Shown piece by piece: positions 3,259 to 58,599 of a DNA stretch of 64,000 nt (position 1 is its first letter; each line of letters starts with the position of its first letter). The stretch lies in NCBI GenBank assembly GCA_947454485.1, contig CANGJJ010000009.1:62001-126000 (forward strand), read 5' to 3'. The notes beneath the pieces were generated by a model, which saw only the letters and a list, made by a program, of their open reading frames with translations, made no database searches and had not been told where the DNA came from. The position numbers and the translations under genes are program-made. This DNA is from Beijerinckiaceae bacterium. Its GTDB lineage: Bacteria > Pseudomonadota > Alphaproteobacteria > Rhizobiales > Beijerinckiaceae.

Positions 3259-3319
3259 CGGGAGTACTCCGTTAAACCGTTGAATTGCCCGGCGTTCCGG
3301 GCGTCTTGGGCGTAACTCT

Positions 3320-3334
3320 GCAATCTGCGTGCCA
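3320..3334 (-). promoter_or_regulatory. Sigma-54 promoter for flgE(-motAB)
   Basis: The minus strand reads TGGCACGCAGATTGC, a perfect -24/-12 match (TGGCAC-N5-TTGC) with the required 10 bases between GG and GC. Transcription should start near 3308, about 50 bases before the flgE ATG. Confidence 0.9.
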
Positions 3335-3370
3335 GCCAGACCGGGGCAGTGGCGCCCCTCTTTTTCTCCC

Positions 3371-3398
3371 TAAAGCTATTTGCCCTTCAACCGTCTCT
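3371..3398 (+). promoter_or_regulatory. FliA (sigma-28) promoter for fliS
   Basis: TAAAG at 3371-3375 and CCGT at 3391-3394 are 15 bases apart (full boxes TAAAGCTA-N11-ACCGTCTC). The same spacing and cores occur before flgM, fliD, flagellin and the 56883 gene. The predicted start is about 20 bases before the fliS ATG. The -10 box differs from the enteric GCCGATAA, so the call rests on recurrence within the window. Confidence 0.7.
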
Positions 3399-3425
3399 AC
3401 CCCTGTTCAGATTGGGCGAGGGACT

Positions 3426-3815
3426 ATGCTGCACCAAGCGATCAAGGCCTATCAAACAGCGGAACAGGAATTCCTGGTCGAGGGCGCCGATGCCCATAAC
3501 CTGGTCCAGATCCTGTTCACCGAGCTTCTTTCCAACCTCGATCGGGCTGGCGAGAGCCTCGAAGCCAAGGACTTCACCGCGAAGTCCTCGCATCTCAGCA
3601 AATCTCTGACCATTCTCCATGTTCTGGCCACCAGCCTCGACTTCGAGCGCGGCGGCGACGTGGCCACCTCACTGGCCGAACTTTATGATTGGGCGCGCCG
3701 CAAGGTCATTCAGGCCAGCTGCAGCAATGTGCGTGCCGAATTGACCGAGGTGCATAAAGTGATCGCCGAGATCGCCAGCGCTTGGGAAAGCATCCGCACC
3801 GTGCGGGCGGCCTGA
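3426..3815 (+). CDS. fliS: Flagellin export chaperone FliS
   Basis: Cytosolic chaperone (129 aa) that binds the flagellin C-terminus, prevents early polymerisation and delivers it to the export gate. The sequence is helical with the family's conserved N-terminal half (Gln/Glu-rich start, HNLVQILFTELLSNLDRA, then SKSLTILHVLATSLDFERGG). Length is near the usual 125-135. The ATG at 3426 follows GGGCGAGGG; the frame is open further upstream, but that part overlaps the promoter. It stands alone rather than after fliD, and a FliA-type promoter precedes it. Its stop lies 2 bases from the convergent fleQ-like stop. Confidence 0.9.
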   Translation: MLHQAIKAYQTAEQEFLVEGADAHNLVQILFTELLSNLDRAGESLEAKDFTAKSSHLSKSLTILHVLATSLDFERGGDVATSLAELYDWARRKVIQASCSNVRAELTEVHKVIAEIASAWESIRTVRAA

Positions 3816-21721: not shown

Positions 21722-22024
21722 TTACTCCCGACCGCTCGGCCCCATCATCGTTTCCACCATGCGCTTCGACAGTTCATCGAAGTCGACAGGGTAGGAATTG
21801 TTGCGGATGGCCGTGCGGATCGCTTCGACCTTGGAACGGTCGATGGGAGCGGAGGAGGCCTGCTGGCCGCCCATGGAGGTGCTGATCTCAACGAGTTCAG
21901 CCCCAGCCCCAGAAGAAAGCACTGACGTTTCAGCAGACGCAGAACCCACCGAAGCCTCGGATTTCGAGGACTTGCGGGCGCTCTGGTCGATCATTGTCAG
22001 GTTCTGACGGATACCGTCGATCAT
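21722..22024 (-). CDS. flgM: Anti-sigma-28 factor FlgM
   Basis: Holds FliA inactive until it is exported through the finished hook. The 100 residues have a disordered Ser/Ala-rich N-terminal half and the typical C-terminal sigma-binding part (SKVEAIRTAIRNNSYPVDFD, then KRMVETMMG). The gene has its own strong FliA promoter, giving the classic feedback arrangement, and is followed by the flgN-like gene. Confidence 0.92.
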   Translation of the reverse strand: MIDGIRQNLTMIDQSARKSSKSEASVGSASAETSVLSSGAGAELVEISTSMGGQQASSAPIDRSKVEAIRTAIRNNSYPVDFDELSKRMVETMMGPSGRE

Positions 22025-27769: not shown

Positions 27770-28597
27770 ATGACACAGATTCACAACGGTCAGGCCATTG
27801 CGATCACCAGCGGCAAGGGCGGCGTCGGCAAGACGAACCTCTCAGTTAATCTCGCACTCTCCTTGTGCAAACAAGGAAAGAAAGTCGCCCTTTTTGACGG
27901 CGATCTGGCGCTTGCCAACGCCTATATCATGATGGGCCTCAGCCCGAAGCAGACACTCGTGGATGCACTGCAGGCTGATTTGCCTTTGAGCAGCATCATC
28001 ACCGAAGGCCCGCAGGGTCTGAAGCTGATCTCGGGCGGCAGCGGTCTGAATGAGCTGATGAATATTTCAGCCAAGACACGCCACCGCATCATCAGCTCCT
28101 TCCGCGAATTGCAGGCTGAGAATGATTATCTGATCGTCGACACCGCCGCTGGCATTGACGATAACGTCCTCGACTTTGTCTATGCCTGCAACCGCGTCTT
28201 GGTTGTTGTGGTGGGCGAGCCTGCGGCCTTTATCGACGCTTATGCCTGTGTGAAGGTTCTGAGCCAGAGCGGCCGCGTCAATCACTTCGACATTGTCGTC
28301 AATCGCGCGCGCGATGAGGCCCATGGCCGCGATGTGTTCAAGCGCTTCAAGGGCATTGTGGACCGCTTCCTCACCGCCAATCTCTACCATGTGGCAACTG
28401 TGCCTGAGGATGAGAAGCTGCTGGTGGGCGTCAACAATTGCCAGCCCCCCGTTTTGTCCGCCCCCAAGTCAAAAGCTGCCAAGGCCTTTGATGGTCTGGC
28501 CACACTGCTGACGGGTCCCAATGCAACGCCGGTGAATGAAGATGCGGCCGCCTTCTTCACCAAAGAGAGCGCGCCGCAGCAGGGGGCTCTTCAATGA
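27770..28597 (+). CDS. flhG: Flagellar number regulator FlhG (FleN), MinD-like ATPase
   Basis: ParA/MinD-family ATPase that limits flagellar number with FlhF; in Pseudomonas the orthologue FleN also restrains FleQ. The deviant Walker A (SGKGGVGKTNLSVNLAL, about residues 14-30) and Walker B (LIVDTAAGIDD) are intact, unlike the motifs of the neighbouring FlhF. A C-terminal amphipathic stretch is not obvious. 275 aa. Its stop overlaps the fliA ATG (ATGA). Confidence 0.93.
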   Translation: MTQIHNGQAIAITSGKGGVGKTNLSVNLALSLCKQGKKVALFDGDLALANAYIMMGLSPKQTLVDALQADLPLSSIITEGPQGLKLISGGSGLNELMNISAKTRHRIISSFRELQAENDYLIVDTAAGIDDNVLDFVYACNRVLVVVVGEPAAFIDAYACVKVLSQSGRVNHFDIVVNRARDEAHGRDVFKRFKGIVDRFLTANLYHVATVPEDEKLLVGVNNCQPPVLSAPKSKAAKAFDGLATLLTGPNATPVNEDAAAFFTKESAPQQGALQ

Positions 28598-29316
28598 CAC
28601 TTGCTCGCGCCTATGTCGCAGCACCTCAAGACCATAATGAGGTGGAGCAGCGTGTGCGGACGCATATGCAGCTCGTGCGCAAAATTGCGTGGCAGATCCA
28701 CGGCCGCGTGCGCGATGTGTTCGAGATCGAGGATCTCGTGCAGATCGGCATGGTGGCCCTTGTGGAAGCTGCCAAGCGCTTTGAAGATGTTGGACAGGCG
28801 AGCTTCACCAGCTATGCCGCCGTGCGTATTCGCGGCACGCTGACTGATCATTTGCGCAAAAATCTCACCCTCACCCGACTGGGTGTGCAGCGTCGCAGCC
28901 AGATCGAAGCCGCCCAAAATGCGGTGAAGGCCAATGGCGGTGATCCGACCAATCCTGAATTGGTGGCGACCGAACTGGGCATCACCGTTCCTGAGCTTCA
29001 GGCATGGCGCGACAAGGCCTCCTCAACGCCCAACAAGTCGCTTGATGAGATCTATGACGATCACTCGGTCTGGTTTGCGGATAAAGGCCACACGCCCGAA
29101 AGCGCGATTGAGGCGGATGAGCTGCGCACGCAGCTTGCCTTCCATCTGAAGCGGCTCAAGGAGCGCGAAGCCCTCGTCCTGCAGCTCTACTATGTCGAAG
29201 AGCTCAATCTCGAAGAGATCAGCGAAGTCCTGCAGGTGACTGTGGGCCGCGTGTCTCAGCTCAAGAAATCGGCTCTCGCCCAATTGCGCCAATGGATGCA
29301 ATCCGACGAAGAGTGA
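28594..29316 (+). CDS. fliA: Flagellar sigma factor FliA (sigma-28)
   Basis: Sigma factor for late genes (240 aa). Region 2 is visible as EDLVQIGMVALVEAAKRFE followed by FTSYAAVRIRGTLTDHLRK; region 4 as KEREALVLQLYYVEELNLEE followed by VTVGRVSQLKKSAL. It ends the flhA operon, so it should be made under sigma-54 control. Five matching promoters (TAAAG-N15-CCGT) in the window are its likely targets. Confidence 0.95.
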   Translation: MTLARAYVAAPQDHNEVEQRVRTHMQLVRKIAWQIHGRVRDVFEIEDLVQIGMVALVEAAKRFEDVGQASFTSYAAVRIRGTLTDHLRKNLTLTRLGVQRRSQIEAAQNAVKANGGDPTNPELVATELGITVPELQAWRDKASSTPNKSLDEIYDDHSVWFADKGHTPESAIEADELRTQLAFHLKRLKEREALVLQLYYVEELNLEEISEVLQVTVGRVSQLKKSALAQLRQWMQSDEE

Positions 29317-45100: not shown

Positions 45101-47104
45101 CGCAATCCGCAACAAATCACCATCAACGGTAATAAGACGATCACGATCAATGCTGCTAGCGGCATGAGCAATGGGATTGCATGGTCAACTGTCGATGGGA
45201 AATTGCGCCTGCGAGGCGATCAAGCCATTAATTCCATCACCCCGGCCCCAGCAGTCAGTGCACTTGGTCTGTCTCAATTTGACTCAACCACAGGCATGGG
45301 GAACACAGATCTCCTGACGGCGATACTGAGCCGCGTGCCCACATCGCAGGAATTGTCAGACGCGATCAACGCAAATCCCCTGACCATCAAAGTCAGCCTC
45401 GACGATGGAAACCCGCCGGTCGACGTCACCATTAATGCACTGAGCGGCACACAGGCTGGATCTTCGATCTCCTGGAGTTTTGTGAATGGCAAGTTGCAGC
45501 TCGCCAGCACAGACCCCGCGCTCAAAATCACAAATGTCAACAATGATGCAGCCGCACTTGAGCTTGGAGTTGCAAATTATGCGACCAATAATGGTGTCCT
45601 CACCGGATCGGCTGTGGCCTATCGTCTGAGCCCGGCTAATCTAACCATAGAGGCCGCTGATGGCCGCCGCTATGCGGTCGACATTGGGACAGCGAGCGGA
45701 TCCAATGCTGCTGCAGGCCTGACTTGGTCCATGGAGAATGGGCGCCTCGTTCTCACGACGCAGAGCAATACACTCAACTTCGTCGCCACAAGTCCACAGC
45801 AAAGAGACAAAGCCGCAAGTGCAGGCTTTATGGGTACAGACCTCAACTTGCAGTCGGTCGACACAACACGCATCACAGCAGGCGGCGATCTTCTACAAAC
45901 GCTCCTGTCGACCCGCAAGCCCCAAATCACTCTGAATACATCCAGTGGTCCGCGCAGCCTAACGATTGCCTCGACAAGCGGATCAGATTCTGTGAGCGGC
46001 ATCTCATGGTCGCTGGTTGATGGAAAACTTCGCTTCTCGAGCAATGATCCTGCTTTGACGGTGGCAGCAAGCGATCAAGCGACGGCGCTCGGACTAGCAA
46101 CACCGCAGAAGAATGGTGGTGTCATCACGGGTGGCGCTCCTCTCCTGTCCACGCTACTGTCAGCCTCTCCCGTCGCATTGCGCGTCAATGGACCCAACGG
46201 AGACGTTACACTCAGCGTCAATGCTACCAGTGGCAGCAGCGATGGCGTCGATTGGGCGTTGACTGATGGACGCCTGACTTTGTCGAGCCGCTTTGCTGGC
46301 CTGAATATCCTCGACCCGACTGAGGCGCAAACCGCGATCACCCGCAGTGCTGGCTTCATCGGCTCTGGTCGTGACACCACCAAAACATCCCGCGAACTCC
46401 ATCTGTCATCATCCATTGAGGCGCAAGACGGCACATTTGTCGATGGCAGCGCAAGCGTTTCCAATGTGGGCGAGACATTGTCCCTCACCAATGAGGTTCG
46501 CGAAGGCCTGATTGTGGCTCTTGCCAGCTCGACGTCGAATGGGCTGCGCCGCTTGGTCGGATCAATCCCACAAACAAGCACGGCGCAAGCTCAAGCAACA
46601 CCAGATGTGCGTGTTCGGATTCTGTCCTCGAACACAGTGGAGATTCTGGATCCCGTCACAGGCATCAGCCTTGCCAATCGCAGCTTCAAGGAAGGCGAGC
46701 CGGTTACATTCCTCGGCCTGCAATTCACCATCCGTGGCACTTCAGTGCCGGGAGACGAATTTGCAATCAATTTCGACACAGGTCGTACTGGCGACAACCG
46801 AAACGCCCTCACGCTTGCGCGCATGTCGAGCAACTCGATCTTTGCAGCGCGTAATGGTACGTTTCAGGATGTCTACAACAGCGTGACCGCAAAGCTGGGC
46901 GCAACCGTTCAGGTTGCAACCAACAAAGCAGACGCTGCGAAGAAATCATCATCGGATCTCAAAGCCGCCTATGATTCAAAGGTCGGCGTTGATCTCGACA
47001 AAGAAGCTGCCGATCTATTGCGCTATCAACAAGCCTATCAAGCGGCCGCTCAGGTCGTTATGGCAGCGCGTGACATGTTCTCCACCATTCTCAAGGTTTT
47101 CTGA
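42188..47104 (+). CDS. flgK: Giant hook-filament junction protein FlgK, 1638 aa
   Basis: First hook-associated protein. The N-terminus (GIGSSGLTAYRKLLETVGSN, ITNANTEGYVRRDV) and the C-terminus (LLRYQQAYQAAAQVVMAARD, ending MFSTILKVF) are typical of FlgK. Usual length is 450-700 aa. The extra 900 residues lie in the exposed middle: two FlgK-type beta units near 370 and 545 (NWTVTSSQGRIVTG; SWTVRSSTGTTTTG), then five repeats with a WS-x-x-(D/N)-G-(K/R)-L core at residues 999-1356. Continuous frame. It follows flgJ by 5 bases and precedes flgL by 8. Confidence 0.93.
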   Translation: MTDILGIGSSGLTAYRKLLETVGSNITNANTEGYVRRDVALTTSGESTMLPTAKLSSVGSGVIVDSVRRAKDYFLQSQALAANSTQQQQQVLADSLSQLEKTILSSGNDPGTTVQELFNRFSDVANAPTSVPARLAVVEAGNNVARMFNQAASAINYSMDSLRTAIDVSLQSINALTSQLATLNSDIQRSSAGGQTPNDMLDQRDKLLTKLSDLTSFNFQETATGTITLYLGDSTSGKPLIDAQGAHTLGAQDNGDRLDIVFDPYTTPMVTSQLKSGLVAGLLDFRKEAQGFLMDMNRLAVGLTSAINDAHEQGVDLNGRAGKPLFSPDSLASTAGSANRGVANLTLSISEAAQLTNATYAAKFDATSDNWTVTSSQGRIVTGKNDLILDGVTFKFDGTAADGDTFSASPLRNAAASIRFLRQEPAELALALPYYIDPSAANKGNETITLQTTSTAAPATSLLSATAVFGTSNAPVDFRRDGAAFAIPAGASGTQLTTLGTSSAIHFPTNEPLVTASTNNRGSARMQFALADATKPLTNSYSATFNGISGSWTVRSSTGTTTTGKGNISIDGITLSFTGAAQEGDRFTLAPVPGTLADHLRAIDNSGATVAGSGLHLKFTSTTQTDTNDIDLLVKPNGNTLSDIADAINEALALQGHADEAVASVANGMLSLNALGSNTISNGQFTGIDSNGLAANISGHTQEKSDATSLRLFTREGRQLSGPAMSADEAAAFLTEANGFLPGAVYQPPSSNVGYPGVDLLTSDNIVHVTQSSTNSAIINLAAYGSLDAAHHTIDSATAGAVYALDVNGLAPVRLAGDQIAGLSADEIADKLADTLNEQASTYSWSGTSFNLASSSVRKFDFQVSFNGKAYSVSFNRSQSADGKWLNSGTFDLHGATGFSINMVDEAPTANGVVNQHIVLSADRILSTTAPTLSITPSNNTKLVGLSDANGVSTLATKVTASGDLLNSVLVRNPQQITINGNKTITINAASGMSNGIAWSTVDGKLRLRGDQAINSITPAPAVSALGLSQFDSTTGMGNTDLLTAILSRVPTSQELSDAINANPLTIKVSLDDGNPPVDVTINALSGTQAGSSISWSFVNGKLQLASTDPALKITNVNNDAAALELGVANYATNNGVLTGSAVAYRLSPANLTIEAADGRRYAVDIGTASGSNAAAGLTWSMENGRLVLTTQSNTLNFVATSPQQRDKAASAGFMGTDLNLQSVDTTRITAGGDLLQTLLSTRKPQITLNTSSGPRSLTIASTSGSDSVSGISWSLVDGKLRFSSNDPALTVAASDQATALGLATPQKNGGVITGGAPLLSTLLSASPVALRVNGPNGDVTLSVNATSGSSDGVDWALTDGRLTLSSRFAGLNILDPTEAQTAITRSAGFIGSGRDTTKTSRELHLSSSIEAQDGTFVDGSASVSNVGETLSLTNEVREGLIVALASSTSNGLRRLVGSIPQTSTAQAQATPDVRVRILSSNTVEILDPVTGISLANRSFKEGEPVTFLGLQFTIRGTSVPGDEFAINFDTGRTGDNRNALTLARMSSNSIFAARNGTFQDVYNSVTAKLGATVQVATNKADAAKKSSSDLKAAYDSKVGVDLDKEAADLLRYQQAYQAAAQVVMAARDMFSTILKVF
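45125..46375 (+). repeat. Five tandem protein repeats in giant FlgK
   Basis: Repeats of about 82-97 residues, each centred on a conserved Trp: IAWSTVDGKLRL (W999), ISWSFVNGKLQL (W1096), LTWSMENGRLVL (W1180), ISWSLVDGKLRF (W1274), VDWALTDGRLTL (W1356). Before the Trp each has a strand and NA-x-SG or similar; after it comes an Ala-rich stretch and, in several, LLxTLLS. The similarity is plain at protein level and weak at DNA level. Confidence 0.85.
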
Positions 47105-47112
47105 GGCTCGCC

Positions 47113-48018
47113 ATGCAAGTTTCAACTCGCTCGTTCTTCCGTCAACAATCTGAGAATTTGCAGGATCTGAAAGGTCAGATCGTGAAGCTGCAGGATGAGG
47201 TCTCCAGCGGCAAGCAGTTGACCGTCCCCTCCGAAGACCCTGTCGCCTTCTCATCGCTCTCAATGCTGAAAGCCAAGGGCGCGCGCATTGAACAGTTCCA
47301 GCGCAACATCGAAGCTGGTCGACAGCATTTGAACCTCGAAGACAATACGCTGACGCAGGTCGCCAACGCTCTCACTCGTATACGCGAATTGAGTGTGCAG
47401 GCGCAGAACGACACTTTGACAGCCAATGATCGCAAATCAGTGGGCGGTGAGATCCGGGTTCTGTCGGATATGATCTTCGACTTGGCGAACACAACCGACA
47501 CAGATGGCAAGCCCATTTTTGCGGGTGCAATCGTCGATCAGGCCCCATTCGAGCGCAGCGCCGATGGATCTGTAGCCTATCGTGGGGACTCCACCAAGAT
47601 CGCTCAATATGTGAATGACTCGACCAGCGTCACCGTCAACAACACCGGCGATGACGTCTTCATGAAAGTCGCGACGCGTGATGGCTCGCGCAAATCAATC
47701 TTTGAAATCGTCGACAGCGTTGCCAATAGCCTAGAAAAGGGCTTGCCTCCCGGTGACGATCTGGCAGACGTCGTCTCATCGCTTGACTCTGTAACAGGTT
47801 GCCAGACGATTACGGGTGCACGTATGGCAGCCCTTGATTCTGAGACCACTCGCCTGTCTGCAGACAAACTGGCAACTTCATCTCATATCTCAGTGCTTGA
47901 AGACACTGATATTGAGAAAGCCATCACTGAGATGAAGCAGAAGTTGACGAGTATTGACGCGGCGCAAAGTGCCTTTGTCAAAATCGCCGACCTTTCGCTG
48001 TTTAACTATTTGCGCTAG
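47113..48018 (+). CDS. flgL: Hook-filament junction protein FlgL
   Basis: Second hook-associated protein (301 aa), flagellin-like. N-terminus FFRQQSENLQDLKGQIVKLQ and SGKQLTVPSEDPVAFSSLSM are characteristic, with a conserved NTTDTDGKPIFAG region and a C-terminal coiled helix. Unlike FlgE and FlgK here, it has normal size. Its last 17 bases overlap the convergent gene at 48002. Confidence 0.93.
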   Translation: MQVSTRSFFRQQSENLQDLKGQIVKLQDEVSSGKQLTVPSEDPVAFSSLSMLKAKGARIEQFQRNIEAGRQHLNLEDNTLTQVANALTRIRELSVQAQNDTLTANDRKSVGGEIRVLSDMIFDLANTTDTDGKPIFAGAIVDQAPFERSADGSVAYRGDSTKIAQYVNDSTSVTVNNTGDDVFMKVATRDGSRKSIFEIVDSVANSLEKGLPPGDDLADVVSSLDSVTGCQTITGARMAALDSETTRLSADKLATSSHISVLEDTDIEKAITEMKQKLTSIDAAQSAFVKIADLSLFNYLR

Positions 48019-48484
48019 GCGCTGCGGGATCAGCGACCGTCTCTGTTTGAGCGGCTGCGAGCTCCTGCTCTGCTGCAAAGTTGGACTTGAGATAGAGCGC
48101 GCGGATAAGCGGCAAGCGTTCGAAATAATCGGACCATTCCAAATCATAAGGCGCGCCCATCCAATCATTGAGCTGCCGCAATTCGTCTGAAATGCGTATG
48201 ACGTGACCGCGCGTTTCGAAGACGAGTTGGATCTCCTGATCGGTTAATTGATCAGGACGCTGCTGGACCAATTGCGCTTCGAGCATGAACAGCGGGTCAA
48301 TCACCTCAAGACGCTGACGACGCAGGCCCTCACCGGCTTGCGGTGCTTTGGCCGGCTTGTCGATTGCATCGAGCTGAGCGCGAATATCAGCGAGGTAACC
48401 GCTCTGCTGCACATAGAGAGTTGCAAAAATGACGATCACGAAGAGCATGATCGCAACAATCGCAATGATGACGAAAAGGTCCAT
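48002..48484 (-). CDS. Unknown membrane-anchored helical protein
   Basis: 160-residue protein of unknown function. One N-terminal membrane segment (LFVIIAIVAIMLFVIVIFAT), then a mostly helical soluble part with EVIDPLFMLEAQLVQQRPDQ and a Trp/Tyr patch (WMGAPYDLEWSDYFERLPLI), ending in an Ala/Pro tail. AAGGAG precedes the ATG. It is convergent with flgL, overlapping its end, and divergent from the transglycosylase. No match to FliO, FliL or MotB that I can see. Confidence 0.7.
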   Translation of the reverse strand: MDLFVIIAIVAIMLFVIVIFATLYVQQSGYLADIRAQLDAIDKPAKAPQAGEGLRRQRLEVIDPLFMLEAQLVQQRPDQLTDQEIQLVFETRGHVIRISDELRQLNDWMGAPYDLEWSDYFERLPLIRALYLKSNFAAEQELAAAQTETVADPAAPSANS

Positions 48485-49615: not shown

Positions 49616-50113
49616 TTATTTTGGTGGGAGCTGGTCTTCGGAAACCAGAACTGCGCCATTAGCGTCAAGAAGCTCACGCGCATCATCCGCCTCGACTTCG
49701 ATCGTGATGCCTTCGGGCAGCTTCATGCCCTTCACGGTCGCAGGCTTGAGCAGGCGCATTTTAACAAGCCCATCCAAAACAGGCTCAGCGGCTACCTCTT
49801 CAACAACCTCTTCAGGTACTGGAGCCTCATCAATCATCTCTTCGCCCTCACCGGGCGGGAACATCCGCACAGCGTCGGGCTTGATGCTGGGAGGCGGCAC
49901 GTCATTGTGTACATCGATAACACGCAAACGCAGCAACTTTTGCCACAGCTTTAAGAACGCGACTTTGCGAGCCAATTGTTCAGCACTGCGCGGCCCGGCT
50001 GCAATAGCAGCCAGCTGAGCGCGCACTTCCGTCACGCCCGATTGACGCTCGACCTCTGTCAATTTCGAGAGATCGAGCGCTTCCAGTTTCTCAAGAACAT
50101 CGTGGCTCGACAT
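49616..50113 (-). CDS. Unknown 165-aa protein downstream of fliD
   Basis: Unassigned protein. A helical N-terminal part (LEKLEALDLSKLTEVERQSG; EQLARKVAFLKLWQKLLRLR) is followed by an acidic Glu/Val/Pro-rich linker and a small C-terminal beta part (VKGMKLPEGITIEVEADDAR). No signal or membrane segment. It is the third gene after fliD, 8 bases after the 64-aa gene, so it may be a chaperone or an assembly factor in the place of fliT, but nothing in the sequence proves it. Confidence 0.68.
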   Translation of the reverse strand: MSSHDVLEKLEALDLSKLTEVERQSGVTEVRAQLAAIAAGPRSAEQLARKVAFLKLWQKLLRLRVIDVHNDVPPPSIKPDAVRMFPPGEGEEMIDEAPVPEEVVEEVAAEPVLDGLVKMRLLKPATVKGMKLPEGITIEVEADDARELLDANGAVLVSEDQLPPK

Positions 50114-50121
50114 GAGGCTGC

Positions 50122-50316
50122 TTATTCAGCAGCCTGCAGCTCGACTTCCGAGGCTGCGCCCTGCAGACCCTGAGCGCCGAGCTCTTCTGGCCAGCGATTG
50201 GTATCGGTGATGGTCGCAACAAGGCGCTCCTGAGCAATACGCTCAGCGGTCTGCGCGTCGGTTGCTTCAATAATCATTTCACCGTTGAGGATCCATTTCA
50301 CGAGATAGGTCTGCAT
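50122..50316 (-). CDS. Unknown 64-aa protein downstream of fliD
   Basis: Small protein that starts MQTYLVKWILNGEMIIEATD and continues with a helix (AQTAERIAQERLVATI). The pattern suggests a compact beta-beta-alpha fold. AAAGGAG lies just before the ATG. It lies 13 bases after fliD and 8 before the next gene. Function unknown. Confidence 0.65.
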   Translation of the reverse strand: MQTYLVKWILNGEMIIEATDAQTAERIAQERLVATITDTNRWPEELGAQGLQGAASEVELQAAE

Positions 50317-50329
50317 GTGCTTTCTCCTT

Positions 50330-51745
50330 TTAACCTTTGAGACCAGCAGTCCAGGCAGACATAGCCTGCGTGAGACTGGTTTGGCTGTTCTTCGTCGACA
50401 TCAGGTAGTCCTGCATCGAGATGAATTGCTGAAGATACTGCTGCTGCAAGGCATCCATCTGACTTGCCAGCTTGTCAGTGTCATTCTTGATATCGACGAG
50501 ATCTTTCTGCGTCGTCTTATTGTAGAGCTGGACGAAAGGTCCGCTGATACCAAGCACTGTGCTCGTCAATTTGTTAAAACGCTCCAACGCGCCTGGCTCA
50601 GTGGCGGTAGATGCCATGACCTGCGTCAAAAGCTCGGGATCGTCCGACTGCACTGCCGTTAAACGGGTCTCGTCGATTGTGAGCGTCCCATCTTGGTTCG
50701 TACGAACGCCTAGTTCGGCCATCGTCGCGGTCACAGAGCCCTTAGTGATCGGATCTGTCGTCAGGCGGCGCATTTGAGCGAGGAAATTTCGAGCCGTCGA
50801 GTCATTCGAAAGGCCGCCCCGCTTGGTGATATCAGCGTCATAGATGATCTCGTCACCAATTGTTTGCAGCAACTGGTTATAGTTTTCAACAATGCCACGA
50901 AGAGCCGAAACCTGCTTGGTCGTATCCGCCTGTGACGTCAACGTCACCGGCCCCGTATTTTTGACCGCAATCTTCACGCCATCGATCAAGCCGCTAAACG
51001 TATTTGTTGCGGACTTATACGCCACACCATCTAGTGTGATCTTGGCGTCATCACCCTGGCTTTGTGCATTTGCAGAATCAGCTTTGAGACCTGATGTGAT
51101 GTCACTGCCATCGTCATTGACGGTCTCCACGAAGAAGCGGTTTTTTGTACCGGTTCCATGCGAAATCGTCAGACGACGGCTGCCATCCGCACCATTGAAT
51201 ATGATCGCTTCAAATCCGGTGGTGGACTTGATTGCATCGCGCAGGTCTTCCAGCTTGGTATAATTTGCAAGCTTGAATGACTTGAGAAGTGTCTTCGATG
51301 CTGTGGGATCTGATGGGGCATCGCCCGAATATATCTTAAGCACCGGCTTGTTCGCCGCGACCGCCAAAGATTGCCCTGAACTCAGTGGCGATAAGGTGAC
51401 AGAGTTGAGCTTCGCCAGTTGATCAACATTAAAAGACAGATTGATCGTGCTTTGAGTCGAATAGGACGAATAGGAGAAGTCCGCGACCGAAGCATTGCTC
51501 GTCAGCGGGAGATAGGCCAATTGTTTTGGATCGCCAAAGGCCGACAAGGCAGTCTTCATCCCATTGGCAGCTGAGTAAATCCGCCCAATGGAAGAGACTT
51601 TGGCATCTGCCAACGTTTTGCGATCATCGATCAGCTTCTGCTGCGGCGCGCGCGACGCATCGGTCAATTGCTGAGAGAGCGACTGGATATCAATCCCGCC
51701 ACCTGTCAGATTATTGACGATGCTGCTACCGATCGTGTTCGACAT
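50330..51745 (-). CDS. fliD: Filament cap protein FliD
   Basis: Cap under which flagellin polymerises (471 aa). N-terminus SSIVNNLTGGGIDIQSLSQQ and the conserved ATALSAFG-type region are followed by the FliD middle (SVTLSPLSSGQSLAVAANKP) and the C-terminal coiled coil (DIKNDTDKLASQMDALQQQY). ATG 51745 has GGAGG 5 bases upstream; the GTG just before it is too close. Two promoters precede it, one sigma-54 and one FliA type. It leads an operon with two unknown small genes. Confidence 0.94.
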   Translation of the reverse strand: MSNTIGSSIVNNLTGGGIDIQSLSQQLTDASRAPQQKLIDDRKTLADAKVSSIGRIYSAANGMKTALSAFGDPKQLAYLPLTSNASVADFSYSSYSTQSTINLSFNVDQLAKLNSVTLSPLSSGQSLAVAANKPVLKIYSGDAPSDPTASKTLLKSFKLANYTKLEDLRDAIKSTTGFEAIIFNGADGSRRLTISHGTGTKNRFFVETVNDDGSDITSGLKADSANAQSQGDDAKITLDGVAYKSATNTFSGLIDGVKIAVKNTGPVTLTSQADTTKQVSALRGIVENYNQLLQTIGDEIIYDADITKRGGLSNDSTARNFLAQMRRLTTDPITKGSVTATMAELGVRTNQDGTLTIDETRLTAVQSDDPELLTQVMASTATEPGALERFNKLTSTVLGISGPFVQLYNKTTQKDLVDIKNDTDKLASQMDALQQQYLQQFISMQDYLMSTKNSQTSLTQAMSAWTAGLKG

Positions 51746-51767
51746 CACTACCTCCAGCCAAGATTCA

Positions 51768-51846: not shown

Positions 51847-53097
51847 CTAGGCTTGCGTGGCAATGGGCAGTTTTCCAACATTATAGGTCTCAGCACCAAG
51901 CTCCGCATGCGGGCCCATTAACCATGCCTCGAGTGCCGTCGAGCCTGCTAGGCAGGCCGCGCGATCATAGGCCCTGATCAGATCGAGTTTTCGAGCCTGC
52001 GAGGCTGCATCAAGCCCCATACGAATTTCATTTCCCTTCGTGGCGAAGGTAAACATCGTTCCTCGAAACTGCGATTTGATGTGATGATGAATCTGTTGAT
52101 GATGAAGCGGCACATTCTGCCCTACGATCCCATGTGTGAAGATCGTGTCATAATTTCCAAGCGGCACCAGATCGAGAAGTCGAAGCGGGATTTGCGGCCC
52201 TGCATCGAAATCCGGGATGACGATGGGATTTTGTCGCAACTGACGCATCGCATCAAAAAAACACAGCATCTGCTTGGGATGAGCGATCGGAACCGAGCAG
52301 ACAATCACATCCAGTCCCGGCTGATCGCTCAATAGCCCACCCGCCCACAGAACTTCTTCTGAAGGATGAGCCACCACAACAGCCGTGCGCCCTGCAAGGG
52401 TTGACCAACGCGAGGTCAGCTGACCCAGAAGGGCAATCTTTGCCTGCTGGATGATCTGCGTAACAGTCTTGCTCCATTGCAATCCTGTGGCAGAACGCGG
52501 CCCGGTCGAGTGATTACCGCGACAATTGATGAAGAAACGGCGCGGCACTTTCGCACAGCGATGAGATGACCAGAGCTGGAGGTAATATTTGAAGTCCTCG
52601 CCCGTATCCATCGTGACATCAAAGCCGATTTTTTGCGCTAGCTCGGCGCGCACGAAATGGCCCATCTGCAAGGTCAAGAACGGGGGAATATTCAAAATAT
52701 CGAGCAAGGACTCAGTGCTCTCCAACTGGTTTTTACGCAACTGGTGCGAGCGCGGTGCATTGGCAGGGGCTTCACTGATCAGCCCCCACACAGCATCATA
52801 GCGGCCCAGCAAATCGGCCACATTCTGGAAACAGTCCCGATCCATAATGTCGTCTGCATCGAGAAAAAATATCCAGTCGATGCCTTGGGCAACCATCTCC
52901 TTAATACCGAGATTGCGCGCATGAGAGCGACCTAATTTGCCTTCAAGATCCCACACAGGATGCAGAACAATTTCGCTGAAAGGGCCCTTACTATGTGACA
53001 TTGCGGCCTTGATCGAGGCAGCACAAATCTCATAAGTCCCCTGATGGCCGGGGCCAACAGGCGTGATGATCGCACAGCGCGGCTTGGTCGTCTGCAT
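51847..53097 (-). CDS. Family 2 glycosyltransferase fused to PIG-L/LmbE-like deacetylase
   Basis: Two-domain enzyme (416 aa), probably for flagellin glycosylation. Residues 1-220 look like a GT-A transferase: AIITPVGPGHQGTYEICAAS, then a DxD-type site in WIFFLDADDIMDRDCFQNV. Residues about 235-400 resemble PIG-L/LmbE amidohydrolases: TAVVVAHPSEEVLWAGG (His244) and YDTIFTHGIVGQNVPLHHQQ. The usual AHPDDE is AHPSEE, so the Asp that acts as base in the family is Ser. ATG 53097 begins the transferase fold. It lies 16 bases after the TPR enzyme gene. Confidence 0.8.
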   Translation of the reverse strand: MQTTKPRCAIITPVGPGHQGTYEICAASIKAAMSHSKGPFSEIVLHPVWDLEGKLGRSHARNLGIKEMVAQGIDWIFFLDADDIMDRDCFQNVADLLGRYDAVWGLISEAPANAPRSHQLRKNQLESTESLLDILNIPPFLTLQMGHFVRAELAQKIGFDVTMDTGEDFKYYLQLWSSHRCAKVPRRFFINCRGNHSTGPRSATGLQWSKTVTQIIQQAKIALLGQLTSRWSTLAGRTAVVVAHPSEEVLWAGGLLSDQPGLDVIVCSVPIAHPKQMLCFFDAMRQLRQNPIVIPDFDAGPQIPLRLLDLVPLGNYDTIFTHGIVGQNVPLHHQQIHHHIKSQFRGTMFTFATKGNEIRMGLDAASQARKLDLIRAYDRAACLAGSTALEAWLMGPHAELGAETYNVGKLPIATQA

Positions 53098-53113
53098 ATT
53101 GGGGCTTGTGCTA

Positions 53114-54637
53114 TTAGGCTGCAACGTCTTCGCTCGCAAAAATAAGCTGCAGGGTCGAGCGAATATCGGCGACGACTGAGGACCAGTCATTTTGCCGCTC
53201 CTGCCGGAACAGGCGCACCGAATTATACCAATGGGATGTCGTCCCCTCGCAGCCCCAACGCCAATCGGGTGTTGTGGGCAACAACACAAAGGTCGGCTTG
53301 CCGATTGCGCCCGCAAAATGCACGGTTGAATTGTCGATCGAGACAACAAGATCGCAAGCTTCGATCAGTGAGACGAGCCCATCGACATCTCTGAATTTAT
53401 CGATAAAGCCTGCCCCTTCGATACTCGCACCTTCTGCCTGCATATCGTTCAGTGCACTGGCATCATCGCCATATTGCAACGACACGAGCTGAACATTCAG
53501 CCCCTCAAAACAGTCCAGCAAACGACGAAGAGCAATCGAACGGAAAATGCCGGATTTCTCATTCTTGGAAATCCAGGAAATGCCGATGGTGAATCGCTTA
53601 TGTGGATTGATCATCTCGCGGATCATGGCCGCGCGCGCGCGGTCTGGCACAAGAAAGGCCGTCCCCTCACCAAAGCTCGACGGATTCGGGCGCAGATATT
53701 GCGGCAAGCTGCCGAGCGGAATCTGAACGTCAAAATCTGGCGCGCGTTCACCCTTGGCAATCACCTGCACGTGCGGGAAAGAGCGGGCAAACATATCTAC
53801 AAGCCGACCATCGACTTCCAACATCAGTTTGGACTGTAGGGCCGCCACATCCGGGAGGAGCGAGGCAAAGAAAATCTCGTCGCCAATCCCCTGTTCCGGC
53901 CAAACCAGCAGGGTCTTGTTGGCATCCGCCGGACCTGACCATTCAGGCTTTTCATATTTGCGCGATGCGAAGGGCAACTTCTTGCGCCGGCGCCATTCAT
54001 AGGCGCTCCAGCCCTCTTGGAAACGCCCCAAGGCAAGCAAAGCAAGACTTCGATTGAACTGAGCCTCAGCAAAAGCAGGGTCGAGGCAGATCGCCTCATC
54101 ATAGGCCTCAATCCCCAGCAAGAGATCGCCGCGCGCGACATAGGCCGCGCCCAAATTGCTCCACGCCTCGATGAGATCGGGTTTGAGCTTCAAAGCCGTT
54201 TGGCAACAGAAGATAGCTTCATCGTAATAGCCAGCGGACTCAAAAGAGATGCCAAGGTTGGAATAGCAAGCCGGATAGTCAGGCTTCAATGCGAGGGCTG
54301 ATTGATAGCTCTTGATGGCCTGAGTGGTTTGCCCAAGCCCCTGAAGCGCGACACCCCGGTTCATCAAGGATTCAGGCACATCAGGACGCAGGTCGAGAGC
54401 CATGTCGAATTGCTTCAAAGACTCTTCAATCTGCCCATTTACCTTGGCGATGATGCCCAGATGGAAATACACGCGCCAATCGCGCGAGCCGCTTTGGGCC
54501 ATCTGCTCATAAAGCCGCTGGGCACTTACAAGGTCGCCAGCCTTATGAATCAGGCGTGCGGTCTCATAGGCGCTATCCTGCGCCTTCTGGGCTGCCGGGC
54601 GCGGAATCGTGGACGCCTTAGATCGTTTGCTCAACAC
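53114..54637 (-). CDS. TPR-containing glycosyltransferase (GT9-like C-terminus)
   Basis: About 507 residues. The N-terminal half is a row of TPR units (VYFHLGIIAKVNGQIEESLK; KPDYPACYSNLGISFESAGY; KPDLIEAWSNLGAAYVARGD). The C-terminal half resembles heptosyltransferase-type enzymes (LLVWPEQGIGDEIFFASLLP; CDLVVSIDNSTVHFAGAIGK). Such TPR-transferase proteins next to flagellin genes are thought to modify flagellin. The start is uncertain: GTG 54637 begins the visible homology, but GGGAG is only 3 bases away and would suit TTG 54634 better. The gene lies between fliC and the GT2/PIG-L gene. Confidence 0.82.
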   Translation of the reverse strand: MLSKRSKASTIPRPAAQKAQDSAYETARLIHKAGDLVSAQRLYEQMAQSGSRDWRVYFHLGIIAKVNGQIEESLKQFDMALDLRPDVPESLMNRGVALQGLGQTTQAIKSYQSALALKPDYPACYSNLGISFESAGYYDEAIFCCQTALKLKPDLIEAWSNLGAAYVARGDLLLGIEAYDEAICLDPAFAEAQFNRSLALLALGRFQEGWSAYEWRRRKKLPFASRKYEKPEWSGPADANKTLLVWPEQGIGDEIFFASLLPDVAALQSKLMLEVDGRLVDMFARSFPHVQVIAKGERAPDFDVQIPLGSLPQYLRPNPSSFGEGTAFLVPDRARAAMIREMINPHKRFTIGISWISKNEKSGIFRSIALRRLLDCFEGLNVQLVSLQYGDDASALNDMQAEGASIEGAGFIDKFRDVDGLVSLIEACDLVVSIDNSTVHFAGAIGKPTFVLLPTTPDWRWGCEGTTSHWYNSVRLFRQERQNDWSSVVADIRSTLQLIFASEDVAA

Positions 54638-54745
54638 GAACTCCCACACCACATTCCCCAAAGGCGCAGAAAACCGCCAATTTCCCCTGTTTATAACAAT
54701 TTTCATGCCAGCCCAGACAAAGCCCCACCCCAGCGCCCCCAAACG

Positions 54746-54796: not shown

Positions 54797-55945
54797 TTAC
54801 TTCAGGAGCGTCAGCACCTGCTGGGGCTGCTGGTTCGCCTGAGCCAGCATGGCGGTCGCTGCCTGCTGGATGATCTGCGACTTCGCAAGGTCCATGGTGG
54901 ACTGAGCGTAGTTGGTGTCTTCAATTCGGCTACGTGCTTCTGCCGAATGGGTCGAGATGTTGGTCAGGTTGTTGACCGTGTACTGGAGACGGTTGATCAC
55001 CGCACCCATGTTAGCGCGCTGGTCGTTGACAGCACCCAGAGCCTTGTCAATCGCGCCGATGGCGCGGTTGGCGTTGTTCTGCGTGTCGACATCGCTGGCT
55101 GCGATGAAGCCCAAAGCGCCTGTGGCCTTATAGGCGTCGACTGAGAAGTCCGCACCATCGTCAGAGGTGAAGGTCAGGCCGGTGGCAGCGGTGGCAGCAA
55201 TCGTGACGCCCAGAGCATCGGAGATGCTGGTGTCGCCAGCGATCGAGTCGAGGACGTTTTGGAAGTCCACGGCAGCCGAGGCGCCAGCCATATCGTCGGC
55301 AGTCACAGTATACTGAGCCTGCTTGCCATCGATGGCGAGGGTGATGATGTCGCCTTCTTCGAAGGTCTCCGAGGACATGTCGACGAGCTGGGTGCCAGCA
55401 GTGACATTGGAGTCGTCAATCGTCGTGGCATCCGAAGAGGTCATGTTCTTGATCGTCAGATCAATCGTCTGGTTGGCGTTGGCGCCCACCTGGAAGGTGA
55501 ACTTGCCGCTGCTGTCAGCGCCGAAAGAACCGTCGAGGATCTTCGTGCCGTTCCACTCAACCGTCTTGCCGATGCGGTTGATTTCTTCCTTGAGCTGCTT
55601 GAACTCGAGGCTGAGTGACTGGCGATCACCGTCAGTGTTCGTGTCGTTGGCAGACTGAACCGAAAGTTCACGCATACGCTGCATCATGTTGGTGACTTCG
55701 ACGAGCGCGCCTTCACCGATCTGAACGAGCGAAATACCGTCGTTGGCGTTACGCACAGCCTGATTGAGGCCGCGGATCTGCGAGGTCAGGCGGGTCGAAA
55801 TAGCAAGGCCAGCGGCGTCGTCAGCAGCAGAGTTGATGCGCTTGCCGGTGGAGAGCTGTTCCATGGCCTTGTTGAGACCACGGGCATTGGAAGCGAGTGC
55901 GGCCTGGGCATTCAGCGAAGCCACGTTGGTGTTGATCACGGTCAT
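54797..55945 (-). CDS. fliC: Flagellin
   Basis: Filament subunit (382 aa). Both conserved ends are present: MTVINTNVASLNAQAALASN and NDGISLVQIGEGALVEVTNM at the N-terminus; ARSRIEDTNYAQSTMDLAKS and a final QQPQQVLTLLK. The middle (about 150-290) is a Thr/Asp/Ala-rich variable domain. The N-terminal recognition stretch MQRMRELSVQSAND resembles gammaproteobacterial flagellins. It is the only full flagellin in the window. GGAG lies 7 bases before the ATG. A FliA-type promoter, a structured leader of about 77 bases and a strong terminator frame it. Confidence 0.97.
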   Translation of the reverse strand: MTVINTNVASLNAQAALASNARGLNKAMEQLSTGKRINSAADDAAGLAISTRLTSQIRGLNQAVRNANDGISLVQIGEGALVEVTNMMQRMRELSVQSANDTNTDGDRQSLSLEFKQLKEEINRIGKTVEWNGTKILDGSFGADSSGKFTFQVGANANQTIDLTIKNMTSSDATTIDDSNVTAGTQLVDMSSETFEEGDIITLAIDGKQAQYTVTADDMAGASAAVDFQNVLDSIAGDTSISDALGVTIAATAATGLTFTSDDGADFSVDAYKATGALGFIAASDVDTQNNANRAIGAIDKALGAVNDQRANMGAVINRLQYTVNNLTNISTHSAEARSRIEDTNYAQSTMDLAKSQIIQQAATAMLAQANQQPQQVLTLLK

Positions 55946-56096: not shown

Positions 56097-56121
56097 GAAA
56101 AAGGCGCGCCGCAGCGCGCCT
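56097..56121 (-). terminator. Rho-independent terminator after the 56146 gene
   Basis: The 8-base perfect stem AGGCGCGC / GCGCGCCT with a 4-base loop is followed by TTTTT on the minus strand. It closes the flagellin-tail gene as its own transcription unit just before the flagellin promoter. Confidence 0.93.
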
Positions 56122-56145
56122 CTTGCAGCTGGCAGGCCCAGCCGA

Positions 56146-56883
56146 TCAGTTCAGAATGAGCCGCACAATCTCGGGCGACACATTACCATGGGCCACCACT
56201 GCACTGCGTAGGTTCACCATGACGGCATCGGCGGTGGAGGCGGCCGAATAGACGCCAAACTGGCTGTCATCAATCTGGGCGCGAGCCATATTCAGCCCCG
56301 TCACCGAGCTGCTGATATTCAAAAGACGATCATGAGCGTCCAAACGGGTCGAGCCCAGCTTTTCGCGCAGCTGCCCGACTTTGCGAAGGGCGGTCTCGAT
56401 CCGGGCCAAAGTACGGTCCCGTGTCTGCTCCTCGAAATATTGGGTCGGATCCTTGGCCCGCAGCCGCATCTTCTGCTCTACCGAGGGGGCGCTTTGCGAG
56501 CCGGGCAGATCGAGCTCGAATTCATCGAGCTGGTCAGCTGCCGCAAAAGCCTCGTTCTGCTGCTCCTCGCTCGCGCTGCCCTGCGTCATCGCCTGATAAC
56601 CCGAGAAGATCTTAGCGAAGATTTTTTCGAGCTGGTCATTGGCCTGGTCGGCCTGAGCAATGGCATCGAACTCCCCACGCATCTGCCCAATCACATGGGT
56701 CGCATGGAGCACATTTTCATCTGTGGTCGACCGATGCCCCTGACCAACAGGGGTCACAGCCTTCTCCCGCATCTCGCTGGTTGAAGGGGCTGGTGAAACG
56801 GCAAGCTCCGCACGCGGTGCGGGCGTGGCCTGCACCTTCGCGACAGTTCCGTCATTTTGAAGTCGTTCAATCATGGCAGTCAT
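56146..56883 (-). CDS. Late flagellar protein with flagellin-like C-terminus
   Basis: 245 residues, not a known family to me. The first 180 residues are mostly polar and helical, with no flagellin N-terminus. The last 60 or so parallel the flagellin end: NISSSVTGLNMARAQIDDSQ against NISTHSAEARSRIEDTN, and a finish VAHGNVSPEIVRLILN against LAQANQQPQQVLTLLK. It has its own FliA-type promoter and terminator, so it is a late, single-gene unit. Start may be ATG 56883 or ATG 56874. It could be an export substrate, filament-associated protein or a decoy for FliS. Confidence 0.75.
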   Translation of the reverse strand: MTAMIERLQNDGTVAKVQATPAPRAELAVSPAPSTSEMREKAVTPVGQGHRSTTDENVLHATHVIGQMRGEFDAIAQADQANDQLEKIFAKIFSGYQAMTQGSASEEQQNEAFAAADQLDEFELDLPGSQSAPSVEQKMRLRAKDPTQYFEEQTRDRTLARIETALRKVGQLREKLGSTRLDAHDRLLNISSSVTGLNMARAQIDDSQFGVYSAASTADAVMVNLRSAVVAHGNVSPEIVRLILN

Positions 56884-56909
56884 CCAAGGGACACCTGTCC
56901 GTGCACGAT

Positions 56910-56936
56910 AAGACGGCTCTAAAGGGCCGGACTTTA
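56910..56936 (-). promoter_or_regulatory. FliA (sigma-28) promoter for the flagellin-tail gene
   Basis: The minus strand reads TAAAGTCC, 11 bases, GCCGTCTT, a good sigma-28 match (TAAAGT and GCCG). The start near 56903 leaves a leader of about 20 bases. Confidence 0.85.
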
Positions 56937-57083
56937 GTTTTTAGAGAACCCATTTTGAAAATGAGGCACCAAATTGGTTTTCTATTCGTCCAGCATGCTC
57001 AAATTTCTGCGCGGCAGCCGTTCTGAATCCAATATGGTTCCTCCTAACGGGTGGAGCATCACCCCTACCCCAGAGGTCCTACA

Positions 57084-57707
57084 TTGCGGTGCCAGCCTGC
57101 CCCTGCCCTCGCCCTGCTGATGGGTCTGAGCCTCGCCTGCGCGGCCCATGCTGCGACACCAGCCCCGGCAGCGCCCGACCAGCCAGAGGTCAATGAGGCC
57201 CTGCGCAGCGGCGATATTGCCCAAGCCTTCCGCTCGACCAAAGAACTCGCCGAACAGGGCGGGCTCGAACAGCAGCACAATCTGTCTTTGTTTTATTGGC
57301 ACGGCGTCGGCATTCCGCAGAATTTCGAAGAGGCGCTGCGCTGGAGCACACTGGCCGCCGTGCGCGGGCATCGCAAAGCGGTTGCTGCCCGTGCTATCAT
57401 GATGCGCAACCTGGATAGTCAGCTTGCGCAGAAATCTATGCAGTGGACGCGCGAGCGTTTGATCAAACTGGCGGAGGGTGGTGACGACATGGCCTTGCCG
57501 CCGCTTGCAGTCAGTTTCCGCCCTGATTTTAGCTTTGGAAATGATGTGGAAGCCTATTTCTGGTCCACCCTCGCCGTGTCGGCAGGTAAAGTTGAGGTCC
57601 GACGCCAGCGCGACGCCCTTGTGCCAACCATGAAACAGGCCGATATCCTCAAAGCCCAACAGCGCGCGAGCGAATGGATGGGTCGTTGGAGAAAAGAACG
57701 CAGCTGA
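57084..57707 (+). CDS. Exported Sel1-like repeat protein
   Basis: About 207 residues. A signal peptide (ALALLMGLSLACAAHA) is followed by short Sel1/TPR-type helices (LEQQHNLSLFYWHGVGIPQN, FEEALRWSTLAAVRGHRKAV). TTG 57084 is preferred because AGAGG precedes it and the signal starts there; a GTG at 57051 is in frame. Such proteins often act as periplasmic scaffolds. It is coupled by TGATG to the next gene. A flagellar role is suggested only by position. Confidence 0.72.
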   Translation: MRCQPAPALALLMGLSLACAAHAATPAPAAPDQPEVNEALRSGDIAQAFRSTKELAEQGGLEQQHNLSLFYWHGVGIPQNFEEALRWSTLAAVRGHRKAVAARAIMMRNLDSQLAQKSMQWTRERLIKLAEGGDDMALPPLAVSFRPDFSFGNDVEAYFWSTLAVSAGKVEVRRQRDALVPTMKQADILKAQQRASEWMGRWRKERS

Positions 57708-58219
57708 TGAGCAACGTCGACCCGAACAACTGCCCGCCCCAATTCGTCTTCGAGATGATGGTCGCACAGATTGCGCGCCGCTTTCTCACCGAAGACAAAT
57801 CCGCTGAAGAGATCGTCGCCGAGACTGTAGAGGCGTTCTCTGACCTCTATTCTATTCTTGATCTGGATGCTGATCTGTTGGGAGGTCTCGAGCGCCTCTT
57901 CGGATTTATCGAATCTGTCCAAATCACAGATGTCGATCTGATGTTGCTGTCCTTCATCTGGTATTCGGCCAATTACGAAAAGCTCGATCTGAAGCGCAAG
58001 AAGAAGCCGCTCTTTGGCAATCCCCTCAAGGGGCAGCCACGCCTGACAGCGCGCGTTTACAACAGCGCTGTGGCTTTTAAGGCTTTCGCTTATGCGATGG
58101 GCGCAAATAAAGCGCCGATTAAGCCGACAGAATGGAAGCCCACGGACGAAGTCGAATTTGAAAGCATCTTCGCCCTGCTCTTCCCTGAAGACTTCAAAAA
58201 GGAAGACAAGCCCGCTTAA
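57707..58219 (+). CDS. Unknown cytoplasmic protein, 170 aa
   Basis: Not recognised. The sequence is mainly helical with a conserved-looking core (VFEMMVAQIARRFLTEDKSA; ADLLGGLERLFGFIESVQIT) and a basic patch (LDLKRKKKPLFGN). No signal peptide or membrane segment. Its ATG overlaps the stop of the Sel1-like gene by one base, and its stop overlaps the stop of the convergent regulator by four bases. Confidence 0.68.
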   Translation: MSNVDPNNCPPQFVFEMMVAQIARRFLTEDKSAEEIVAETVEAFSDLYSILDLDADLLGGLERLFGFIESVQITDVDLMLLSFIWYSANYEKLDLKRKKKPLFGNPLKGQPRLTARVYNSAVAFKAFAYAMGANKAPIKPTEWKPTDEVEFESIFALLFPEDFKKEDKPA

Positions 58220-58599
58220 CGGCCCTTATCGCTCAGCGGCAACTGGCGCGCGACCGAAAACCACTGTGAAACATCGCTCACAACGACGCCTTGTGTATTT
58301 TCGATCAGACCCATCGCAGCCAGACGCTTGATCTTGCGACGGGCTGTCTCTTTGGGGATCTTCATAAAGTCGGCAACCGAAGAAATATTGGTCGAGGCAA
58401 TATAGCCGTTGGAGCCGACACGTTGAATGCGCTCGGTGTTGAGATAACCGATGCACAAATAAAGCAGCATCTCTTCGACATCGAGCTTCAAGCTTGAGCG
58501 AATATTGTCGATAGCGCCGAACAAGCCTCTAAGCGCAAGAAGCTGCATAGCCTCTTGCGGGGCGTCCTTGCCGGGCATGTTGACCACTGTCGATTGCAC
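58216..58599 (-). CDS. Small winged-helix transcriptional regulator
   Basis: 127 residues. The C-terminal part reads NISSVADFMKIPKETARRKI followed by KRLAAMGLIENTQGVVVSD, the pattern of a MarR/Crp-type winged helix. The N-terminal part is helical (EEMLLYLCIGYLNTERIQRV). GTG 58599 has GGGG about 7 bases upstream. It is divergent from phaC across 184 bases and could regulate it or itself; no operator repeat was found. Confidence 0.72.
   Translation of the reverse strand: MQSTVVNMPGKDAPQEAMQLLALRGLFGAIDNIRSSLKLDVEEMLLYLCIGYLNTERIQRVGSNGYIASTNISSVADFMKIPKETARRKIKRLAAMGLIENTQGVVVSDVSQWFSVARQLPLSDKGR

Follow-up and report, generated by a model that had tools for sequence, protein, structure and literature searches.

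The window, i.e. the whole stretch of 64,000 nucleotides that was analysed, carries a flagellar gene cluster of the FliA type, encoding FliA, FlgM, FliS, FliD, FlgL and long FlgE- and FlgK-like proteins. Within it lies a gene for a flagellin-related protein of 245 aa, for which the working name CTF is used here. The genes and signals concerned are:

56146..56883 (-): CTF gene, flagellin-related, 245 aa (open reading frame and flagellin matches)
56910..56936 (-): sigma-28 (FliA)-type promoter of CTF, TAAAGTCC-N11-GCCGTCTT (motif and family conservation)
56098..56124 (-): predicted intrinsic terminator of CTF, a T run behind a GC-rich stem-loop (folding energy)
54797..55945 (-): fliC, flagellin, downstream of CTF and with its own FliA-type promoter (Flagellin_N 8.8e-48, Flagellin_C 1.1e-20)
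50330..51748 (-): fliD, filament cap (Pfam match)
47113-48018: FlgL, separate from CTF (both Pfam flagellin domains)
28594..29316 (+): fliA, sigma-28 (domain match)
21722..22024 (-): flgM, anti-sigma-28 (domain match)
3285..3815 (+): fliS, flagellin export chaperone and proposed partner of CTF (domain match)

The original prediction placed CTF next to fliC and gave it a late FliA promoter and a terminator of its own, and the locus agrees on all three points. FliC (382 aa) is encoded 200 nt away by the gene that follows on this strand. The CTF promoter begins 53 nt ahead of the start codon and has the same spacing, TAAAG-N15-CCGT, as the one upstream of fliC; an equally possible start lies at Met4 (codon at 56874), which is invariant in both the 38-row and the 21-row family alignments. 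The stem-loop and T run at 56124-56098 reached a folding energy of -20.5 kcal/mol (z -2.5), with 4/200 shuffles being equally good. This terminator was absent from the output of a mechanical sigma-70/terminator scan, which was uninformative.

Conservation of the promoter motif was assessed in the 250 nt upstream of each gene, using starts picked by family alignment and mononucleotide shuffles as a reference. TAAAG-N15-CCG was found ahead of CTF at 10 of the 16 loci, 52-73 nt from the start, compared to a shuffled expectation of 0.05, and ahead of fliC in 11/27 cases, seven of them at 98-133 nt and four at 223-232 nt. The control genes yielded no or one occurrence each (fliD 1/10, sel1 1/12, p57674 0/20, p58216 0/15, phaC 0/2, p49616 0/6 and p48575 0/5). 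With the looser pattern TAAA[GA]-N14-16-CCG, the counts were 14/16 for CTF, 15/27 for fliC, 2/12 for sel1, 1/2 for phaC and 1/10 for fliD. The CTF promoter motif is of the sigma-28 type and is conserved in the family, and CTF thus looks like an independently transcribed, late flagellar gene, even where it and fliC lie on different strands.

FlgE and FlgK are usually several times smaller than the very long FlgE-like (33306-38393, 1695 aa) and FlgK-like (42188-47104, 1638 aa) proteins of the window. The interval between fliC and fliD (51847-54742) encodes a TPR protein, with a glycosyltransferase-9 match below cut-off, and a GT2 glycosyltransferase, which are possibly involved in flagellin glycosylation. 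Three small proteins near fliD and flgL (50122-50316, 49616-50113 and 48002-48484) matched no family over cut-off, and their order is conserved in relatives (L019-L021 and L058). In one relative (G021), a flagellin-like protein of 932 aa is encoded (L032:11659-14457 (-)), much longer than the 382-aa FliC of the window. On the other side of CTF, at 57051-58599, lie genes for a Sel1-repeat protein, a 181-aa protein and an HTH-like protein, which are frequent neighbours of CTF yet separable from it. The arrangement HTH-p57674-Sel1 is usual at CTF loci, but was rejected as a functional unit with CTF, since p57674 and sel1 are found on another contig in G102 while CTF still lies upstream of fliC.

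Protein searches at E<=0.001 retrieved 48, 62 and 50 homologues of CTF, in total 80 identifiers including that of the window protein itself. The homologues span 157-296 aa, most are full length, none carries a precomputed Pfam domain, and where a source name is given, as in a few cases, it is 'hypothetical protein'. No Pfam or NCBIfam model reached its cut-off for the family among the matches listed. The protein had been proposed to be undescribed, and no published account of the family was found in the literature searched by titles and abstract beginnings. What is new here is the CTF family. Derivatives of flagellin are already known, as are FliS ligands that resemble it, so CTF is not a new kind of thing.

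The distribution of the family is narrow. Scanning named genomes with the single CTF sequence gave no match, while the CTF alignment detected six loci, five in Beijerinckiaceae MAGs and one labelled Rhizobium sp. CTF was found in 14/101 relatives by one-sequence search and in 17/200 genomes by the 38-row profile; the latter number is counted as 16, as the match in G126 (E 9.6e-4, 56 residues) was set aside as a probable chance hit. A 65-row profile found CTF in 16/397 genomes of the taxonomic family, and in 385 genomes of the class, matches came only from the window's own genome and two others (L066 and L067), of which L066 reads as an ordinary flagellin.

FliS was present over cut-off in all 16 CTF genomes of the 200-genome search (G209, from the 397-genome search, falls outside this check), compared to 30/200 overall, the genomes being related rather than independent. 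FliA was found at E<=1e-35 in 13/16, the exceptions being G005, G028 and G044. CTF was absent from 14 of the 30 FliS-bearing genomes, showing that FliS does not need CTF. Ten genomes bearing FliS or FliA gave no CTF match at E<=10, four of these genomes being just 63-86% complete. CTF thus goes with the FliA/FliS type of flagellum but is dispensable to it. A second, weak FliS-like protein was also noted (G000:C2:72379-72669, L038:1333-1869 (-); 24.5 bits, below the Pfam cut-off). It was rejected as a CTF partner, as its neighbourhood looks non-flagellar by eye and matches of this weak sort are also seen where CTF is missing and in relatives without a strong FliS.

The genomic place of CTF was surveyed at 16 loci (15 relatives and the window) using the window proteins as the only queries, so that the wider gaps may hide genes. 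The next recognised filament gene 3' of CTF was fliC or fliD in 16/16 loci, at a distance of <=0.5 kb in 14. In 10/16 loci fliC follows on the same strand, within about 0.4 kb in eight of them, with wider gaps in L028 (1.7 kb) and L019 (2.4 kb, with a TPR-like match between, on the other strand). In the remaining 6/16, fliD follows in convergent orientation within 0.5 kb.

The relation of CTF to flagellin was evident from several sequence comparisons. Against the NCBIfam FliC/FljB model (NF005294), residues 82-240 matched at E=7.7e-7, though with 29 bits compared to a cut-off of 387, and all NCBIfam scores fell similarly far short. Against PDB sequences, the single CTF sequence matched flagellins at E=7.8e-5 over residues 131-241, in an ungapped alignment to residues 381-491 of a 495-residue flagellin that ends four residues short of both C-termini. 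Family profiles matched PDB flagellins at E=1.4e-6 (38 rows), 5e-8 (21 diverse rows) and 5e-9 (65 rows), and the first 26 PDB matches of the 65-row profile were all flagellins. This rise in significance as distant members join is the behaviour of true homology. The NCBIfam flagellin model matched 31 of 38 CTF members at E<=0.1 (best 4.2e-8), while Pfam Flagellin_C matched 1/38 (at 0.036) and did not match the window protein at E<=1.

Two comparisons with local sequences speak against the relation. CTF shares 18/88 identical residues with the C-terminus of the neighbouring FliC, and profile-profile alignment (hhalign) to local flagellins was weak, both for the whole protein (E 0.097, probability 0.6%) and for the C-terminal part (E 0.0046, probability 7.6%). 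Two blind checks agreed with the relation. Outside the CTF family, the 101-genome search gave just two matches at E<=0.001, both within flagellin genes. At E<=10, three flagellins (E 0.0021-0.042) were all that the CTF profile matched outside the family among 1032 local ORFs; it missed most of the flagellins in this set (22 flagellin ORFs were listed in the first loci). When the columns of the CTF profile were shuffled, none of 30 versions gave a flagellin match at E<=100.

Judged by sequence, the C-terminal ~110 residues of CTF are homologous to the D1C/D0C region of flagellin. The original prediction had likened the last 60 residues to flagellin, and the related region proved wider (~131-241; E=5e-9 with the 65-row profile). 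Of the motifs that it listed, NIS lies three residues off in the ungapped alignment, whereas the register is kept by AR-x-x-I-(D/E)-D, by N-x-x-P-x-x-V and by the hydrophobic finish; AR-x-x-(I/V)-D is lost in some distant members of the 21-row alignment. For the N-terminal half, Flagellin_N gave no match to CTF at E<=1, nor to the 38 members among 25 of 30 families listed, and homology was rejected after comparison of the profile with flagellin N-terminal regions (E 0.14-0.2, no match).

Structural models divide the protein into the following parts:

56731..56883 (-): CTF codons 1-51, conserved tail, predicted disordered, where flagellin has the D0-N helix (models)
56509..56727 (-): CTF codons 53-125, predicted helices 53-101 and 106-125, placed like ND1a/ND1b, no sequence match (models)
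56149..56436 (-): CTF codons 150-245, flagellin-like C-terminal part (sequence and model)

Residues 1-51 had block pLDDT values of 35-45, and conserved residues in this tail include M4, R7, R24, L27, E37 and A42. The C-terminal part was modelled as a CD1 helix (150-204), a spoke-like break (205-209) and CD0-like helices (210-232 and 237-244). By mean top-residue fraction, conservation was highest in the CD0-like end (0.64), the CD1-like helix (0.60) and the tail (0.56), and lower in helix 1 (0.50), helix 2 (0.39) and the linker (0.22). Fold comparison of the models, performed by VIA-align 2, gave 16 flagellin/FlgL rows, with STAT, PI3K and other helical proteins ranking equal or higher; by itself, the fold match to flagellin is weak evidence. 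In seven of these 16 rows, representing four different flagellins, the fold end points lay within one residue of the sequence register (four of the seven rows being variants of one protein, and entry numbering being taken as sequence position). In the first CTF model, some end points of the D0 part were 2 to 4 residues off register.

Taken together, the models predict that CTF consists of a D1-like three-helix body behind a conserved disordered tail, which replaces the D0-N helix. The proposal that the flagellin N-terminal half is absent thus stood in part: flagellin N-terminal sequence and a D0-N helix were not found, but the helices predicted in this half sit like ND1a/ND1b.

The D0-N helix is required for filament building, and filament subunits use it together with D0-C. 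Since the flagellin C-terminus is the part held by FliS, we infer that CTF binds FliS and does not polymerise. In Campylobacter jejuni, FliS is reported to bind flagellin lacking ND0 or ND1 and to fail to bind flagellin lacking the last 10 residues (PMC5466977). In Helicobacter pylori, the reported contacts of FliS on FlaB include Ser496, Ala500, Gln501, Asn503, Leu512 and Leu513 and, further upstream, Glu481, Phe485 and Lys487 (PMC7248283). CTF was compared with FlaB by aligning the C-terminal ends, and counts were taken in the 38-row and then in the diverse 21-row alignment. Corresponding residues were found at S227 (Ser496; 34/38 and 13/21), A231 (Ala500; 38/38 and 20/21), N234 (Asn503; 25/38 and 6/21), position 243 as I/V (Leu512; 38/38 and 19/21) and position 244 as L/M (Leu513; 38/38 and 18/21), while H232 stands in place of Gln501 (38/38 and 21/21). 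At the upstream positions 212, 216 and 218 (Glu481, Phe485 and Lys487), the contact residues were not kept. By sequence comparison, the contact positions for FliS thus appear partly kept in CTF.

The preferred explanation is that CTF is a member of the flagellin family that has become a non-polymerising late-class flagellar protein. It would be made alongside flagellin once sigma-28 is freed, and would bind FliS, and possibly the export gate via FliS, without polymerising. It could then compete with or modulate the loading of flagellin on FliS, serving as a co-chaperone or export tuner similar to the role discussed for H. pylori HP1076. Keeping the chaperone-binding end without the filament-building front, CTF may tune the handling of filament proteins rather than form a filament. 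We give such a FliS-centred role, as competitor, co-chaperone or export tuner in the manner of an HP1076-like non-polymerising ligand, an even chance of being correct. FliS binding and association with the filament, which the original prediction offered side by side, are different mechanisms, and the evidence for CTF leans to FliS binding. A broader formulation, which we hold tentatively and at less than an even chance, is that CTF is a lineage-specific 'regulatory flagellin'. In a complete flagellin architecture, the filament-building D0-N helix would have been swapped for a conserved disordered tail, so that a structural subunit became a regulator that is timed by sigma-28 and acts on FliS and the export gate, or else a dedicated protein exported to the base or tip of the filament.

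Alternatively, CTF might itself be exported via the flagellar type III system, with the conserved disordered tail as signal, and become a minor constituent of the filament, the junction or the base, or be secreted as a monomer. The sigma-28-type control, the location near fliC or fliD in 16/16 loci, the conserved and predicted disordered N-terminus and the D1/D0C-like body would all fit an exported protein. However, CTF has no D0-N helix, FlgL, FlgK, FliD and FliC are all separately encoded, and CTF is missing from some relatives whose flagella are of the same type; export of this kind is less likely than not. An action on sigma-28 control, for instance freeing or retaining FlgM via FliS so that late transcription is tied to the chaperone load, would agree with the FliA-type promoter and with the FliS-FlgM interaction reported in Salmonella and Yersinia pseudotuberculosis (PMC5466977), but is improbable given that a normal FlgM is present and no FlgM domain matched CTF among the matches listed. 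CTF as a replacement for FlgM was rejected, FlgM being encoded separately at 21722-22024.

The similarity to flagellin could also be a convergence of long amphipathic helices in an unrelated protein, a view that the near-constant failure of Pfam Flagellin_C, the weak profile-profile scores against local flagellins and the high fold ranks of STAT, PI3K and other helical proteins would favour. It is nevertheless very improbable in light of the 26 leading flagellin matches in the PDB, the ungapped register to the C-terminus, the seven rows with fold end points within one residue of that register and the genomic place. Least credible of all is that CTF is a decaying, functionless flagellin duplicate: the loss of flagellin N-terminal sequence and the patchy presence (16/397 genomes) would suit decay, but the 80 retrieved proteins are mostly full length with invariant residues, promoter and place are conserved, and pairwise dN/dS in the family was 0.16-0.62 (pairs with dS<3, dS being near saturation).

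Returning to CTF as a non-polymerising FliS ligand, its significance lies in the fact that flagellin output has to match export capacity. If the reading is true, CTF splits chaperone binding (C-terminal) from polymerisation (N- plus C-terminal) in one natural protein, and makes it testable whether non-polymerising flagellin mimics recur as FliS tuners.

Among known proteins, flagellin itself (FliC/FljB; NF005294, PF00669 and PF00700) shares with CTF the C-terminal D1/D0 region in register, the predicted D1-like helix order, the sigma-28-type promoter and the place near fliC/fliD. CTF differs in having no Flagellin_N match or D0-N helix, in the disordered tail found instead and in scores far under the cut-offs. 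The hook-filament junction protein FlgL likewise has flagellin-type D0/D1 ends, but is a separate gene in the window genome and carries both Pfam flagellin domains. YvzB is a short, C-terminal-only protein that is plainly flagellin-like. Described as a flagellin homologue of Bacillus subtilis (PMC8929632, PMC9912610), it contrasts with CTF, which is highly diverged and has a conserved N-terminal part of its own. The N-truncated C. jejuni FlaA constructs, which lack ND0 yet bind FliS, share the absent D0-N helix with CTF; they are, however, laboratory-made and were reported as poorly expressed and degraded (PMC5466977), whereas CTF is natural and conserved.

The closest functional parallel may be HP1076, which has a fold like that of flagellin D1 and binds FliS in competition with flagellin (PMC7248283). 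This precedent is itself unsettled, since the hp1076-null strain is reported to have no flagellation or motility phenotype, the protein is found at the membrane whether or not FliS is involved, and the relationship is described by the authors as incompletely elucidated (PMC7248283). The CtpA protease has been reported to cleave HP1076 in vitro (PMC12749690). Structures of HP1076 are available (PDB 3K1H, 3K1I and 6LEA), yet no chain of that name occurred among the PDB sequence matches at E<=10 or among the 50 fold rows listed; 6lea_E was among the single-sequence PDB matches of CTF, as a chain named flagellin. As described, HP1076 is RpoN-dependent, has 171 aa and was found by its authors only in epsilonproteobacteria (PMC7248283), and a sequence relation to CTF was not detected. 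The two resemble each other as small non-filament proteins with a D1-like body, predicted in the case of CTF, that are lineage-restricted and occur in FliS-bearing species; HP1076 is expressed with flagellar genes, as is suggested for CTF by promoter type and place. In contrast to HP1076, CTF keeps a D0-C-like end, the part that FliS binds in flagellin. HP1076 hinted at the existence of flagellin-like FliS ligands (PMC7248283), and CTF would add a flagellin derivative from another lineage that is traceable by sequence and lies beside fliC with the same type of promoter.
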